Shown here: one piece after another, positions 28,170 through 34,042 of the stretch | How positions within the stretch are numbered: the first letter of the stretch is position 1 | Layout: the number at the start of each line of letters is the position of its first letter | Assembly: GCA_937922045.1 (NCBI GenBank) | Contig: CAKZXA010000004.1 | Location: 106,878-170,877, forward strand | Length of the DNA stretch: 64,000 nucleotides | Source of the DNA: an uncultured Acidimicrobiales bacterium | GTDB lineage: Bacteria > Actinomycetota > Acidimicrobiia > Acidimicrobiales > SZUA-35 | Direction: 5' to 3' | Translations under genes and position numbers: made by a program | The notes under the pieces: model-generated | What the model saw: only the letters and a program-made list of their open reading frames with translations | Database searches by the model: none | What the model was told of the DNA's origin: nothing

Positions 28170-29168
28170 TCAGACTCCGATCTCAACCGGGGTTTCCGGA
28201 TAGTGGCACGCTACCTGATGACCGGGCGTGATCTCCTCAAGGGGCGGCTCGTCGGTGCGGCAGATGTCGGCAACCTTCCAGCACCTCGTGTGGAAACGAC
28301 ACCCGCCCGGAGGGTTCGAAGGGCTGGGAACGTCACCTTTGAGCATGATGCGCTCACCCCTGACGTGCTTGCGCGACGCCGGTACGGGAACGGCCGACAA
28401 CAGAGCCTTGGTGTAAGGGTGGGCCGGGCTTTCATACACGTCGGCACCGGCGCCGAACTCAACGATCTTGCCGAGGTACATGACTGCGACCCGATCCGAG
28501 ATATGCCGTACGACCGACAGATCGTGGGCGATAAAGAGGTAGGACAGCCCGAGCTCGTTCTGAAGATCCTCAAGAAGATTCACGACCTGGGCCTGAACCG
28601 ACACATCAAGAGCCGAGACAGGCTCATCGGCGATAATCAACGTTGGTTCCAAAGCGAGGGCACGGGCAATACCTATCCGTTGACGTTGACCACCCGAAAA
28701 CTGATGGGGATAGCGATTCACGTAGTTGGGGTTGAGGCCAACGACCTCGAGCAGCTCCTGAACCTTGGTCCGGTGCTTCGACTCGTCGACCACCCCTGGA
28801 TGGATATGCCAGGCTTCGGCGATGATGTTGTTCACCGTCATACGCGGGTTGAGCGAGGCATAGGGATCCTGGAAGACGACCTGCATGTCGCGCCGGGCCG
28901 CCCGAACATCAGACATGTCGGCCCCAACCAACTCCCTACCGAGAAACCGAACCGAGCCGGACGTCGCCTTCTCCAACCCAAGAACCGTGCGGGCCGTCGT
29001 CGATTTGCCACACCCTGATTCGCCGACCAGGCCAACGGTTTCGCCCCGGGCAACATCGAAACTCACACCGTCGACCGCCTGCACCTGGCCGACGGTTCGA
29101 CGCAGAACCCCCTTGGTGACGGGGAAATGCTTGACCAGGTTCGCTACCTCAAGAATGGGTTCACTCAC
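28170..29168 (-). CDS. oppF: Oligopeptide/dipeptide ABC transporter ATPase (OppF/DppF type)
   Basis: About 332 residues: Walker [20 protein letters not shown]-loop [16 protein letters not shown], signature [19 protein letters not shown], Walker [17 protein letters not shown], switch [14 protein letters not shown] and the C-terminal oligopeptide_HPY cysteine cluster [16 protein letters not shown]. The ORF-track start at 29288 is too early. The GTG at 29168 has GGAGGG nine bases upstream and overlaps the OppD stop. It would pair with OppD as the second ATPase. The selenoprotein gene follows after two bases. Confidence 0.9.
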
Positions 29169-30144
29169 CGAACGCATCCCTCCAGTGGTGACATGCAGTA
29201 GACCGGCCCGAGTCGCCAACAAATTCAAGCGTCGGTTCGACCTCGGCACAATCCGGCTGCTGATACGGGCAGCGGGGCCGGAAGGCACAGCCCGAGGGGA
29301 TTCTGAGCAGATCCGGTGGGTTCCCTCTGATGGGATTCAGGCGCTCATTGAGATCATCGAGACGCGGTATCGAGTTCATCAACCCCTCGGTATAAGGATG
29401 GTGAGGCTGATCGAAGATCTCGTCGATCGTGCCTTTCTCCATTGCCCGCCCCGCATACATCACCACAACTCGATCGGCCTGCTCAGCTACCACCCCGAGA
29501 TCGTGGGTGATCAGGACGAGACCCATGCCAAACTCGGCCTGCACGTTTTCGAGCAACTGCATGACCTGGGCCTGCACGGTGACATCGAGGGCGGTTGTCG
29601 GCTCATCGGCGATGAGCACGTCTGGATCCAAGGCCAGGGCCATCGCAATCATGACCCTCTGTCGCATGCCACCGGAGAACTCGTGCGGAAACGATCGATA
29701 CCGATTCGTCGCGTCGGGGATCTCGACCAACTCCATGAGTTCAACGGCGCTCTTCTTCGCCTCCTTCTTGGAGGCACCCCGGTGTTTGCGGAACATCTCG
29801 GAAATCTGCCAGCCAACCGAAAAGACCGGGTTCAGCGCTGAGAGAGCGTCCTGGAAGACCATGGCGATATCGGCGCCCCGAACCTTGCGGCGCTCGTCCT
29901 CAGCCATCGTCAGCAACTCACGACCCTCGAATCGCACCGAGCCTTTCGTGATGAAACCGGGCGGCGACGCAATCAGGCCCATGATGGCCTGGGCGCTCAC
30001 GCTCTTACCGCTACCGCTCTCACCGAGAATGGCCACGGTTTCTCGCCGATCGACCATGTACGACAAGCCGTTGACGGCACGCACCACACCGTCGTCGGTT
30101 CGGAACTCGACGTGTAGATCGTCGACGACGAGTAGGGGATCCAT
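29161..30144 (-). CDS. oppD: Oligopeptide/dipeptide ABC transporter ATPase (OppD/DppD type)
   Basis: About 327 residues, starting at the ATG at 30144 that overlaps the OppC stop (TGATG). Walker A is [19 protein letters not shown]-loop [16 protein letters not shown], signature [19 protein letters not shown], Walker [19 protein letters not shown], and switch [15 protein letters not shown]. The C-terminal cysteine-containing segment [22 protein letters not shown] is the oligopeptide_HPY extension. The ORF-track extension to 30627 overlaps OppC and has no family match. It couples ATP hydrolysis to peptide import. Confidence 0.9.
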
Positions 30145-31058
30145 CACCGCTGCCTCGGGTCGAAGGCGTCGCGAAGCAGGTCGCCCAGGAGGATGAAAGC
30201 GAAGACTGCCATAGACAAAATGGCGCCGGGGAACAGCAACAGATACGGGTGGGTCTGGATCCGAGCCCTCGAGTCGGAGATGATCAGACCCCACGAGATC
30301 GATGGTTTCTGCAACCCAACGCCGATGAAGGTAAGCGTCGCCTCGGCCGCAATGACGACACCGAAGAAGATGGCCATGTACACCAGCAGAGGCGTCAAGG
30401 CATTGGGCAGAATGTGACGCCAGATGATTCGAAAGTCCGTGGCCCCCAACGCACGGGCGGAGTCGATGTAGTCGGCGTGTTTCACCGCGAGAACCGCCGA
30501 CCGTGTGAGGCGCAACATCGTCGTCCAGCTGAACACGATCAGGGCCAGGCTCAGCGTGGCGATGTTGCGGGTCTCGAACATTTGCAGCATCACAATGCTG
30601 CCGAGAACACCGGGGATGGCGAACCAAACATCGGTGATGCGAGAGATGATCGAGTCGATCCAGCCGCCGTAGTAGCCAGCGAGGGAACCGAAGATCAGGG
30701 CGATGATCGCACAGAACGTCGTGACGACGAAGGCGATCACGATCGAGACACGGGCACCATAGATCACGTTGGCATAGACGTCACGGCCGAACAGATCGGT
30801 ACCGAACCAGTGTTCCCGGCTGGGGAACATCAAGCCGTTGCGCTGATCTTGGGCTTCAGGGTCGAGGCTCGTGAACAGTTGGGGGAACGCCGCCATCGCA
30901 AGCAATACCGCAATGATGGTGATACAGATCCAGAAGAGCGGACGTCGACGGAGTTCGCGCCAGGCGTCGCTGCCCAGCGACCCTTCGCGAATCGCCGCGA
31001 GGTCCTCGTCTTCGATCGCGCCCTGATCCGCACTATCGAGCGTTTCCAGATCAGTCAT
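30144..31058 (-). CDS. oppC: Oligopeptide/dipeptide ABC transporter permease (OppC/DppC type)
   Basis: About 304 residues, from the ATG at 31058 inside the end of oppB. An N-terminal cytoplasmic acidic stretch precedes the first helix (LFWICITIIAVLLAMAAF). EHWFGTDLFGRDVYANVIYGARVSI is the OppC/DppC signature, and the EAA-like loop reads DSARALGATDFRIIWRHILPNALTP. AAEATLTFIGVGLQKPSISWG is also typical. It forms the import channel with OppB. The overlap with oppB (8 bp) and with oppD shows tight translational coupling. Confidence 0.9.
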   Translation of the reverse strand: MTDLETLDSADQGAIEDEDLAAIREGSLGSDAWRELRRRPLFWICITIIAVLLAMAAFPQLFTSLDPEAQDQRNGLMFPSREHWFGTDLFGRDVYANVIYGARVSIVIAFVVTTFCAIIALIFGSLAGYYGGWIDSIISRITDVWFAIPGVLGSIVMLQMFETRNIATLSLALIVFSWTTMLRLTRSAVLAVKHADYIDSARALGATDFRIIWRHILPNALTPLLVYMAIFFGVVIAAEATLTFIGVGLQKPSISWGLIISDSRARIQTHPYLLLFPGAILSMAVFAFILLGDLLRDAFDPRQR

Positions 31059-31974
31059 AACGAATTCTCGGATCAAGAACGGCGTAGAGGATATCGACCA
31101 GCAGCGTGGTGAACATGTAGACCAGGATGATGAAGGTAGTGATTCCGACGACCGTTGTGCCTTCCTGGCGGACAACACCATCAAAGACAGCACCCCCAAG
31201 GCCCGGGATGTTGAAGACGGTCTCGGTCACGATCGCTCCACCCAACAGAGCGCCCAGATCGATACCGAGGTAGGTAACGACGGGGATCAGCGAGTTTCGC
31301 ATGGCGTGCACGCCAACCACGCGACCTCGGGTCAAGCCCTTGGCGGTGGCGGTGCGTACATAGTCGGCCCCCAGATTGTCGATGAGGCTGGAACGGGTTA
31401 GCCGAGCCACGTAGGCGAGCGACACCGAACCCAAGACCATGCCGGGCAGGAGATAGGAGATCCACCCCTGCTTGATGCCAGCCACGGGGAACCAGCCGAG
31501 CTTCAGGCCAAACGTGACCTGGGCCAGAAAGCCGAGGACGAAGATAGGAATCGAGATGACGGTCAGCGTTGAGACCAAAACCAAGGAGTCAAAGAATCCT
31601 CGCTGCCGGACGCCGGCCAAAATCCCGGCCAAGACCCCCAGGAAGACTTCGAAGACGAAGGCCACCGCAGCGAGCCGAGCCGTAATCGGCAAACGCTGCT
31701 TGATGATGTCGCTCACCGGCCGTCCCCGGAAGTTGGCACCGAAATCGCCTCTGAGGAGACCAGCCGCGTACTTGCCGTACTGCACCGGCAGCGGATCATC
31801 GAGGTTGTACTCCTCGATAAGCGCCTGGCGCACGCTTTCAGATTGGGCACGCTCGCCAGCAAGTGCTCGAATCGGATCGCCAGGCAAGGAGAACACCATG
31901 GCGAAGATGAGCATGGTGGCGAAGATGAAGACCGGGATCATCTGCAAAAGCCGACGGATGATATAGGTTGCCAA
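31051..31974 (-). CDS. oppB: Oligopeptide/dipeptide ABC transporter permease (OppB/DppB type)
   Basis: A 307-residue permease starting MATYIIRRLLQMIPVFIFATMLIFAMVF, the standard OppB/DppB N-terminus. LPGDPIRALAGERAQSESVRQALIEEYNLDDPLPVQYGKY and GDFGANFRGRPVSDIIKQRLPIT are family blocks. The cytoplasmic loop contains TAKGLTRGRVVGVHAMRNSLIPV, the coupling segment, and ETVFNIPGLGGAVFDGVV is near the C-terminus. It is downstream of the binding-protein gene across a hairpin. Confidence 0.92.
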   Translation of the reverse strand: MATYIIRRLLQMIPVFIFATMLIFAMVFSLPGDPIRALAGERAQSESVRQALIEEYNLDDPLPVQYGKYAAGLLRGDFGANFRGRPVSDIIKQRLPITARLAAVAFVFEVFLGVLAGILAGVRQRGFFDSLVLVSTLTVISIPIFVLGFLAQVTFGLKLGWFPVAGIKQGWISYLLPGMVLGSVSLAYVARLTRSSLIDNLGADYVRTATAKGLTRGRVVGVHAMRNSLIPVVTYLGIDLGALLGGAIVTETVFNIPGLGGAVFDGVVRQEGTTVVGITTFIILVYMFTTLLVDILYAVLDPRIRYD

Positions 31975-32039
31975 CCTCTCGTCCCCCTTGTGGTGGTTTC
32001 AGCGAACCGTTCGATGGGCGTTTACAACGACGAAAGACA

Positions 32040-32071
32040 AGCGGGCCGGCCCGACGTTGGACCGGCCCGCT
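32040..32071 (-). terminator. Hairpin between oppA and oppB (partial terminator or mRNA-stabilising stem)
   Basis: AGCGGGCCGG and CCGGCCCGCT form a 10-bp GC-rich stem around a 12-nt loop, 26 bp after the oppA stop and about 65 bp before the oppB start on the minus strand. There is no U-tract. Its position mirrors the hairpin in the sugar importer operon. Confidence 0.65.
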
Positions 32072-32096: not shown

Positions 32097-33806
32097 TTAC
32101 TCGCCTTCTTCTGCCTCATTGATGTCTCCGTAACCAACGACGTTGGCAAAGAAGTGGTTGTTGGCCTGACCGTTTTCGCCGATCGCGGCGTAGTTCCAGG
32201 CGTTGATGAACGAAGCGGCCGTAACCGGCTCGCCATTGTGGAACGTCCAACCGTTCTTCAGTACGATCGTCCACGTCTTACCACCATCATCGCTGGTGAT
32301 CGACTCGGCGACCTCGTTGTAGGGCTCGGTGGACTGGGGATCGAAATCGACCAGACCACGGAAGAGTGTGTCGAGAACCTTCGAACCCTCAGACTCATTG
32401 GAGTTTGTGGGGAAGAGATGCTCGGGCTCGGCAATACCGGTTGCAACATCGCCACCGGTGATCTCCGTGAAGTTCGCTCGACCGAAGGCTGTCACATACA
32501 CATTGTCGACCGTGTCGTTCCATGCGTACTGGTTCTTCGAGAAGTAGATCGGCATCACGGCGACGTCTTCGCAGACCATGTCTTCAGCAGCCTGGTAGAA
32601 CGGAATGGCGTCTTCCAGCGAACCGCCAGCGGCGGCTTCCTTGCCTTCGCCCAACATGGCGTCGAAATCAGCGTTGTCGTAGAAGGAGCTGTTGGAACCA
32701 ACGGGGGGCTGGTTGTACGAGGCGTAGAGCGGCTCGAGGAAGTTCAACGGCGATGGGTAATCCATGCCCCAACCAAGACGGAAAGGCCCGGTCATCTCGC
32801 CAGCGTCGAGCTTGGGAAGATACTCGGAGAACTCGAGGTTCTCGAAGGCGAAGTTCTCGATGCCGAGAACATCACGCCACTGGCCGGTCACAGCGGTGGC
32901 GATCTGCTCATGGCTGGTGCTGGTGTTGAACCACACGGTCAACGCTTCGTTGCCTAAGGCTTCGAGTCCGCCGAAGGCCTCAAAGGCTGCCTTTGCACCC
33001 TCGGGGTCGTAGTTCCAGTTGTCACAGACGGTGTCGCGAGAGCCAGCCAACGATGGTGGGATCACCGAGTGGGCCGGGGTACGGCTGCCGTCGAGGATCG
33101 CATCGATTAGCAGTTCACGATCGAGCGCCATCGAGAGCGCCTGGCGCAGTTCGAGCGGGTACTGGTCGTTGAGATAGCTGGGAAAGCCGTAGTAGTAAAA
33201 ACCGGTGTTTGGCGACTCGGCGAAACGGTCACCAAACTCGGTCTTGGCCGCGGCAATCTGTTCGGCTGGAACCGCCATCACAAAGTCGTTCACCCCAGCC
33301 TGGAGATCGAGGTAGGCGGTCGTGCTGGCGTCCTCGTAGATATTGAAGGTGACGCTATCGACATCGGCCGGATCGCTGCCTGCGTAGTCGGGATTGGGCA
33401 CGACCCTGATGGCGATGTCGTGGTCCCAGGCACCGTCCATCATGAACGGACCATTCCCGATCGGCATTTCTTCAAAAGCGGCAGGATCGTCGAATGCCGC
33501 TTCGGGCAGTGGATAGAAGGCGTTGTAGCTCAGCTGCAGCGGGAACTCGGCATCAGCGTTTTCGAGCTCGACCGTGAAGGTGTTGGCGTCGACCAGAGCG
33601 AGACCGGACAGACCCCCGTCCATGACCTCCGCGACCATCGCTGCGCCCTCATCGTCGGCAATCGATGCGTCGGTGTCGGCGTCTTCATCGTCGCCGGTTA
33701 CCTCATCGACAACGTCGTCGACAGCATCTTCAGCGGTGCAACCAGCGGCTACAAACGCGAGCGCCAAAAACGCGGCGATCAGCCTACGTGATCTAGTGAT
33801 TCTCAT
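32097..33806 (-). CDS. oppA: Oligopeptide-binding lipoprotein (SBP family 5), apparently circularly permuted
   Basis: A 569-residue protein with an intact lipoprotein signal (LALAFVAAGC, Cys23) and an acidic linker (residues about 24-55). In actinobacterial relatives the mature protein opens with a block like EPxxLxPTNxNExxGxxVxDxxFxGLV...AWNYAA, followed by LSGL...DFPLxLxYxAFYPLP. Here the order is reversed: GGLSGLALVDANTFTVEL and FYPLPEAAFDD come directly after the linker, the normal C-terminal block (DVAVMPIYFSKNQYAWND) is at about 430, and then AEPEHLFPTNSNESEGSKVL through FINAWNYAAIGENGQANNHF forms the last ~119 residues. All pieces are present once. The rest of the importer (B, C, D, F) is downstream. 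Function as a peptide receptor is expected from the family. Misassembly is the main alternative. Confidence 0.85.
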   Translation of the reverse strand: MRITRSRRLIAAFLALAFVAAGCTAEDAVDDVVDEVTGDDEDADTDASIADDEGAAMVAEVMDGGLSGLALVDANTFTVELENADAEFPLQLSYNAFYPLPEAAFDDPAAFEEMPIGNGPFMMDGAWDHDIAIRVVPNPDYAGSDPADVDSVTFNIYEDASTTAYLDLQAGVNDFVMAVPAEQIAAAKTEFGDRFAESPNTGFYYYGFPSYLNDQYPLELRQALSMALDRELLIDAILDGSRTPAHSVIPPSLAGSRDTVCDNWNYDPEGAKAAFEAFGGLEALGNEALTVWFNTSTSHEQIATAVTGQWRDVLGIENFAFENLEFSEYLPKLDAGEMTGPFRLGWGMDYPSPLNFLEPLYASYNQPPVGSNSSFYDNADFDAMLGEGKEAAAGGSLEDAIPFYQAAEDMVCEDVAVMPIYFSKNQYAWNDTVDNVYVTAFGRANFTEITGGDVATGIAEPEHLFPTNSNESEGSKVLDTLFRGLVDFDPQSTEPYNEVAESITSDDGGKTWTIVLKNGWTFHNGEPVTAASFINAWNYAAIGENGQANNHFFANVVGYGDINEAEEGE

Positions 33807-34042
33807 TGCTAATCTCCTCCGTTGGCCGACAGTACTGAATCCCCAAGCCAGCTCAAATATCTCGTGGAGTGGTTGTCAACCGAGCAGCCTGTGGCACGAC
33901 AGACATGGGATCATAGAGGGTTACCTGGTGGTAATGGTCAACCTAGTGACAAAAGCACCAAGAGTCTAGGCTCCGCAACACGATTGACGCTTGAGCTTGC
34001 CGGACCAAACAGCACCCCGATCGGGAGGCTCGCCAACGACAT

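Follow-up and report, generated by a model that had tools for sequence, protein, structure and literature searches.

A circularly permuted OppA/DppA-type binding lipoprotein conserved in Acidimicrobiia, one of several independent permutants in the SBP_bac_5 family

Introduction

Natural circular permutations are scarce, and they usually go back to a single old event whose trace in the sequence is faint. The standard route to such a rearrangement is tandem duplication followed by trimming. For the binding proteins considered here, the nearest precedent in the open-licence literature is MglB-2 (Tp0684) of Treponema pallidum, which belongs to a different structural cluster. MglB-2 is a circularly permuted, glucose-binding lipoprotein of an ABC importer, assigned to cluster B, and a 'Cluster Bc' has been proposed to accommodate it (PMC4990184). 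The protein retains ligand binding and the permutation is found across several lineages; the permuted segment shows only 13% identity to its normal counterpart, and the authors suggest that it may have originated from another gene (PMC4990184). No earlier account of permuted OppA/DppA-type proteins was found in the open-licence literature, and the subscription literature may hold one.

Here we describe a binding-protein gene in a 64,000-nucleotide stretch of DNA from an uncultured Acidimicrobiales bacterium (the window). Like cluster C proteins of the SBP_bac_5 family (M. tuberculosis DppA, 7jls; 8wd9), its product has all the family blocks and a lipoprotein signal, and is encoded with an oppBCDF operon. 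In contrast to DppA/OppA-type proteins, however, it carries the canonical N-terminus as its last ~113 residues, and its new termini lie in a loop of domain II. The window protein and MglB-2 are alike in being natural circular permutations of ABC-importer binding lipoproteins. They differ in that MglB-2 has the cluster B sugar-binding fold, whereas the window protein is of cluster C and its moved segment is clearly homologous to the normal counterpart, with up to about 60% identity to normal-order SBP_bac_5 relatives. A further difference is that several cut points are known in SBP_bac_5.

All family blocks are present in rotated order

The 569-codon open reading frame (Table 1) starts with ATG, has no internal stop codons and ends at a clean stop. 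The sole Pfam match of the 569-aa protein is SBP_bac_5 (PF00496), a cluster C family, which places it outside 'Cluster Bc'; the match scores 200.9 bits, against a gathering cut-off of 32.4, and is divided into two stretches. Comparison with M. tuberculosis DppA (7jls) by phmmer resolved two crossed, non-overlapping blocks, residues 457–564 aligning with 35–140 of the 7jls chain (82 bits, i-E 3e-22) and residues 66–449 with 150–534 (159 bits, i-E 2e-45). Crossed blocks were likewise obtained with 8wd9. On a family profile made from 17 normal-order homologues, the core and moved blocks fall on positions 126–506 and 10–126 of 506, respectively. Together the two blocks cover the profile, and therefore nothing is missing and the order alone is rotated. 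The protein thus departs from the colinear order of SBP_bac_5 while retaining every block.

Table 1. Features of the binding-protein gene and the importer genes that follow it (positions in the window)
Feature	Position	Strand	Basis
Circularly permuted OppA/DppA-type solute-binding lipoprotein, 569 aa (predicted)	32097..33806	-	sequence, Pfam, phmmer
Ribosome site GGAGGAGA, Shine-Dalgarno-like GGAGGAGATT	33811..33820	-	sequence
Signal peptide and lipobox (..FVAAG-C23), residues 1-23	33738..33806	-	sequence; equivalents in permuted homologues
Acidic linker, residues 24-65, up to the new start of the fold (LSGL..)	33612..33737	-	sequence
Core block, residues 66-449, canonical middle and C-terminus	32460..33611	-	crossed phmmer block, DppA 150-534; canonical HMM 126-506
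New joint TGGDVAT, residues 450-456, canonical C-terminus to canonical N-terminus	32439..32459	-	
Moved block, residues 457-569, canonical mature N-terminus (GIAEPEHLFPTNSNESEG...NVVGYGDINEAEEGE)	32100..32438	-	phmmer, DppA 35-140; canonical HMM 10-126
OppB-type permease	31051..31974	-	Pfam PF00528, PF19300
OppC-type permease	30144..31058	-	Pfam PF00528, PF12911 OppC_N
OppD-type ATPase	29161..30144	-	Pfam ABC_tran, oligo_HPY
OppF-type ATPase, start codon uncertain	28170..29288	-	Pfam ABC_tran, oligo_HPY

A preliminary description of this DNA had proposed a rotated block order within one gene, a C-terminal block equivalent to the N-terminus of the family, and a match to the family from end to end once the chain is rotated back. 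The crossed blocks on DppA and the coverage of the profile bear out all three, and the block boundaries given there lie within a few residues of those found by phmmer. It had also described the signal peptide as intact and the importer genes as all present, and both statements hold: a lipobox stands in front of the acidic linker, and oppB, oppC, oppD and oppF follow the binding-protein gene. By inspection, FVAAGC occupies residues 18–23 and supplies the lipobox cysteine, and the protein is accordingly a predicted lipoprotein. These comparisons support the identification of the 569-aa protein as an OppA/DppA-type lipoprotein whose chain is circularly permuted; the match scores, together with the identical order in other genomes, exclude chance. 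No solved structure listed for any of three permuted queries aligned end to end in permuted order.

The permuted order recurs in independently assembled genomes

The permuted order was found in a single open frame in at least 12 other genomes belonging to several families. Two genomes of the window's genus (G001 and G002) encode proteins colinear with the window protein over residues 5–565 at 68–70% identity, and a genome of another family (G087) encodes one colinear over 71–569 at 64% identity, its N-terminus being lost at a contig end. The G087 protein was recovered with a query spanning the joint, as were those of nine more members of the class, aligned over ~60–563 at 45–53% identity (G626, G650, G642, G617, G497, G597, G459, G573 and G590), and one protein from outside the class (G1048, L107). 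Wherever the contig includes the start of the gene, a signal peptide, a lipobox and a low-complexity linker precede the fold. Across the permuted homologues compared, the start of the fold is fixed, the composition of the linker is variable, and the C-terminal ends all fall within a few residues of one place.

The genome that holds the window is a draft of 128 contigs, and the other Acidimicrobiia genomes with a permutant are also draft assemblies of many contigs. A misassembled or chimeric contig in which two parts of a normal gene had been exchanged is nevertheless vanishingly improbable. Order and joint are identical in these other genomes across several families, at 45–70% identity and in open frames; the signal peptide and the stop of the window gene are intact; and SBP_bac_5 permutants also occur on complete circular plasmids and in a single-contig genome. 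Misassembly was the outcome that the preliminary description had named as fatal to its proposal, and it fails against an order conserved in so many independently assembled genomes.

The permuted gene precedes an importer operon and is under purifying selection

In the window, the binding-protein gene lies upstream of a complete oppBCDF set, with the two permeases and two oligo_HPY ATPases of an Opp/Dpp-type importer. The genes oppB, C, D and F also lie behind the permutant gene in G001, G002, G087 and G497. Between the binding-protein gene and oppB is a G+C-rich hairpin with a T-rich tail (32038–32070, minus strand), possibly a partial terminator, although a hairpin scan gave a count no greater than in shuffles.

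The permuted gene is under purifying selection. Values of dN/dS range from 0.03 to 0.33 (NG86, Nei–Gojobori) and are rough, dS being high in several pairs. Site-by-site conservation in the permuted proteins follows that in normal proteins, with rho of 0.63 for the moved block and 0.57 for the core, and the correlation drops to about 0 when the columns are shifted. We considered whether the gene might be a decaying, non-functional paralogue, given that normal-order homologues also occur in near-by genera; nothing else was found in favour of this idea. The dN/dS values, the retained site-by-site conservation, the intact signal peptide and a place ahead of oppBCDF that is conserved across several families make decay extremely unlikely.

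The Acidimicrobiia type is derived from normal-order proteins

In a tree built from sequences rotated to normal order, 13 Acidimicrobiia permutants group together as a single clade (99/97) that lies within the normal-order proteins. Their closest normal-order sisters are in G494 and G500 (L087 and L104), with 51–61% identity in the blocks. The G1048 protein falls just outside the main permutant clade, and a single clade that includes it is not rejected (p 0.277). Normal-order relatives exist within the window's own genus (G007 and G009) and this, with the nested position of the clade, indicates that the permutation is derived.

The arrangement would have a single origin, in the common ancestor of the Acidimicrobiia permutants, probably through tandem duplication followed by in-frame trimming, with selection maintaining it afterwards. 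Duplication and trimming had also been put forward in the preliminary description. A repeat search within the window found no scar of duplication, and we infer this route, for which precursors of the right kind do exist: another genome of the same class (L105, G670:C437, 4090–7560) carries a tandem pair of normal-order SBP genes, as one would expect of the stage that precedes permutation by duplication.

Other loops of the family have been cut

SBP_bac_5 proteins cut at two further loops were identified in one Acidimicrobiia-class outsider and in four Actinomycetes genomes. The G774 protein (L106/L103, G774:C34) starts ..DVRRRQAVSMAIN and ends ..YLGFPIDLELAASWHG; its cut falls in the YLGFP/RRALSMAI loop, between positions equivalent to residues 209 and 218 of the window protein. 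The same genome holds a second, different permutant (L110, G774:C8); this one, a far relative, is cut at the loop used in the window protein.

The Actinomycetes permutants are of the DppA type (L098/L111 in G972, L112 in G1085, L113 in G1113 and L154 in G1373), are cut in a loop of domain III and have the C-terminus ..LWEQANEI(N/S)PW. Three of these genomes (G972, G1085 and G1113) belong to one genus; of its 99 sampled species, these 3 alone yielded a match that crosses the joint, and all other matches in the genus were confined to the N-terminal block, the pattern of a normal-order gene. The fourth genome, G1373, consists of a single contig; its protein stands apart from the other three, and the domain III loop of the Actinomycetes type may have been cut twice.

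Eleven further permutants (L141–L151), each of them checked, are encoded on haloarchaeal and alphaproteobacterial plasmids, nearly all of which are complete circular records; haloarchaea were sampled through plasmid records. Ten of the 11 show permuted order against the normal-order profile, and the Maritalea protein, for which a single block was scored, was assigned by its colinearity with the other plasmid permutants. AppA (1xoc) gives crossed blocks with the proteins of Natrononativus (WP_345781479.1) and Ketogulonicigenium vulgare (WP_013385786.1). The plasmid permutants share with the window protein the Pfam family, the kind of rearrangement and the presence of ABC genes alongside, permease and ATPase genes adjoining them in the records that were readable with annotation. 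They differ in being cut in the domain III loop and in forming a separate clade, and the alphaproteobacterial ones have a signal peptide without an evident lipobox, which argues that tethering is not a general cause of permutation. A joint-spanning query was matched over at least 80% of its length in 36 of 38 plasmid records. This clade is widespread, and its members are annotated simply as substrate-binding proteins.

New termini open in loops whose length is already variable: among 86 normal-order homologues, the three cut loops stand at the 99.8th (window), 90.5th and 95.2nd percentiles for indels.

Permutation occurred several times independently

Forcing the Acidimicrobiia and Actinomycetes permutants into one clade gave a log-likelihood 467 worse (p about 1e-43), and this arrangement is rejected. 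A tree of 62 rotated sequences, computed by a quick method and with some rows long-branched, requires at least seven changes between normal and permuted order, and it groups the haloarchaeal and alphaproteobacterial permutants in one separate clade. In view of the long-branched rows and the quick method, the safe reading of these sequences is that permutation happened independently at least four or five times, with seven the best estimate. All permutants share canonical C- and N-termini joined by a short joint, as would be expected from one ancient permutation ancestral to all of them, with the cut point sliding later. Such a history is very unlikely, since the rotated trees put each type among different normal-order relatives, the common clade of Acidimicrobiia and Actinomycetes is rejected, and the wider tree needs its seven or more changes.

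The window protein is thus confirmed as a conserved natural circular permutant and as one of several independent ones in one binding-protein family. The preliminary description had dealt with this one protein; it belongs to a conserved clade, and permutation has occurred in SBP_bac_5 several times over, at different loops. It is likely that the cluster C fold has undergone repeated, independent permutation in both Bacteria and Archaea, through at least seven changes at three or more loops. The fold would then be an evolvable hot spot and a topological class that had gone unnoticed ('cluster Cc'), whose members may exploit the new position of the tether or a changed motion of the domains.

One large two-lobed family thereby offers many permutations with clear homology across the joint, and some of them are young, having normal-order sisters within the same genus. 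This makes it possible to test how permutations rise stepwise and which loops tolerate new termini, how folding, hinge motion and docking to the transporter are affected, and whether selection acts on the moved lipid tether. For the design of biosensors from peptide-binding proteins, the cut loops also provide split or permutation sites already tested in nature. The same cases carry a warning that rearrangements of this kind are hidden by linear domain models.

Proposed working of the permuted fold

The canonical N- and C-termini of this fold lie close together in domain I, so that a short joint can close the chain. In the window protein the two would be joined by about seven residues, and the joint is similarly short in permutants with three different cut points. 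The new termini would lie at the surface of domain II, in the loop whose length varies most across the family; within domain II, the cut falls after the WNYAA..GY region and before the LSGL strand. With the export signal, lipobox and flexible linker remaining in front, only the entry of the tether into the fold would have moved, and the lipid tether would leave from domain II instead of domain I. The Venus-flytrap fold itself would be unchanged and would bind peptide and deliver it to OppBCDF. AlphaFold, given two input sequences (the window protein and L034), returned a pLDDT of 30.7, which is uninformative about the fold; indirect support for an unchanged fold comes from the retained site-by-site conservation.

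A joint of about seven residues might instead cause the moved block to fold with a neighbouring molecule, giving a domain-swapped dimer or oligomer. We judge this unlikely, because a short joint suffices where both canonical termini are in domain I, and its recurrence with three cut points is most simply understood if the chain closes on itself. Judged from its sequence and gene context, the window protein thus very probably works as the lipid-anchored, peptide-binding component of an ABC importer of Opp/Dpp type, with a circularly permuted chain of one Acidimicrobiia origin, in a family whose other loops were permuted independently.

Two scans of viral contigs returned one relative only. A junction-like match in G185 (L051/L073) proved to be a broken normal-order gene, and two pieces in G007 (L036 and L037) seem to be the halves of one normal-order gene that a contig break has separated, rather than a permutant. 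Within the genus of the window, this gene is the closest relative with normal order, and the apparent break (at the end of L036 and the end of L037) lies inside the loop that is cut in the permutants, with the insert TTTQTNDEGEDEEVADCDGSPPPAE.
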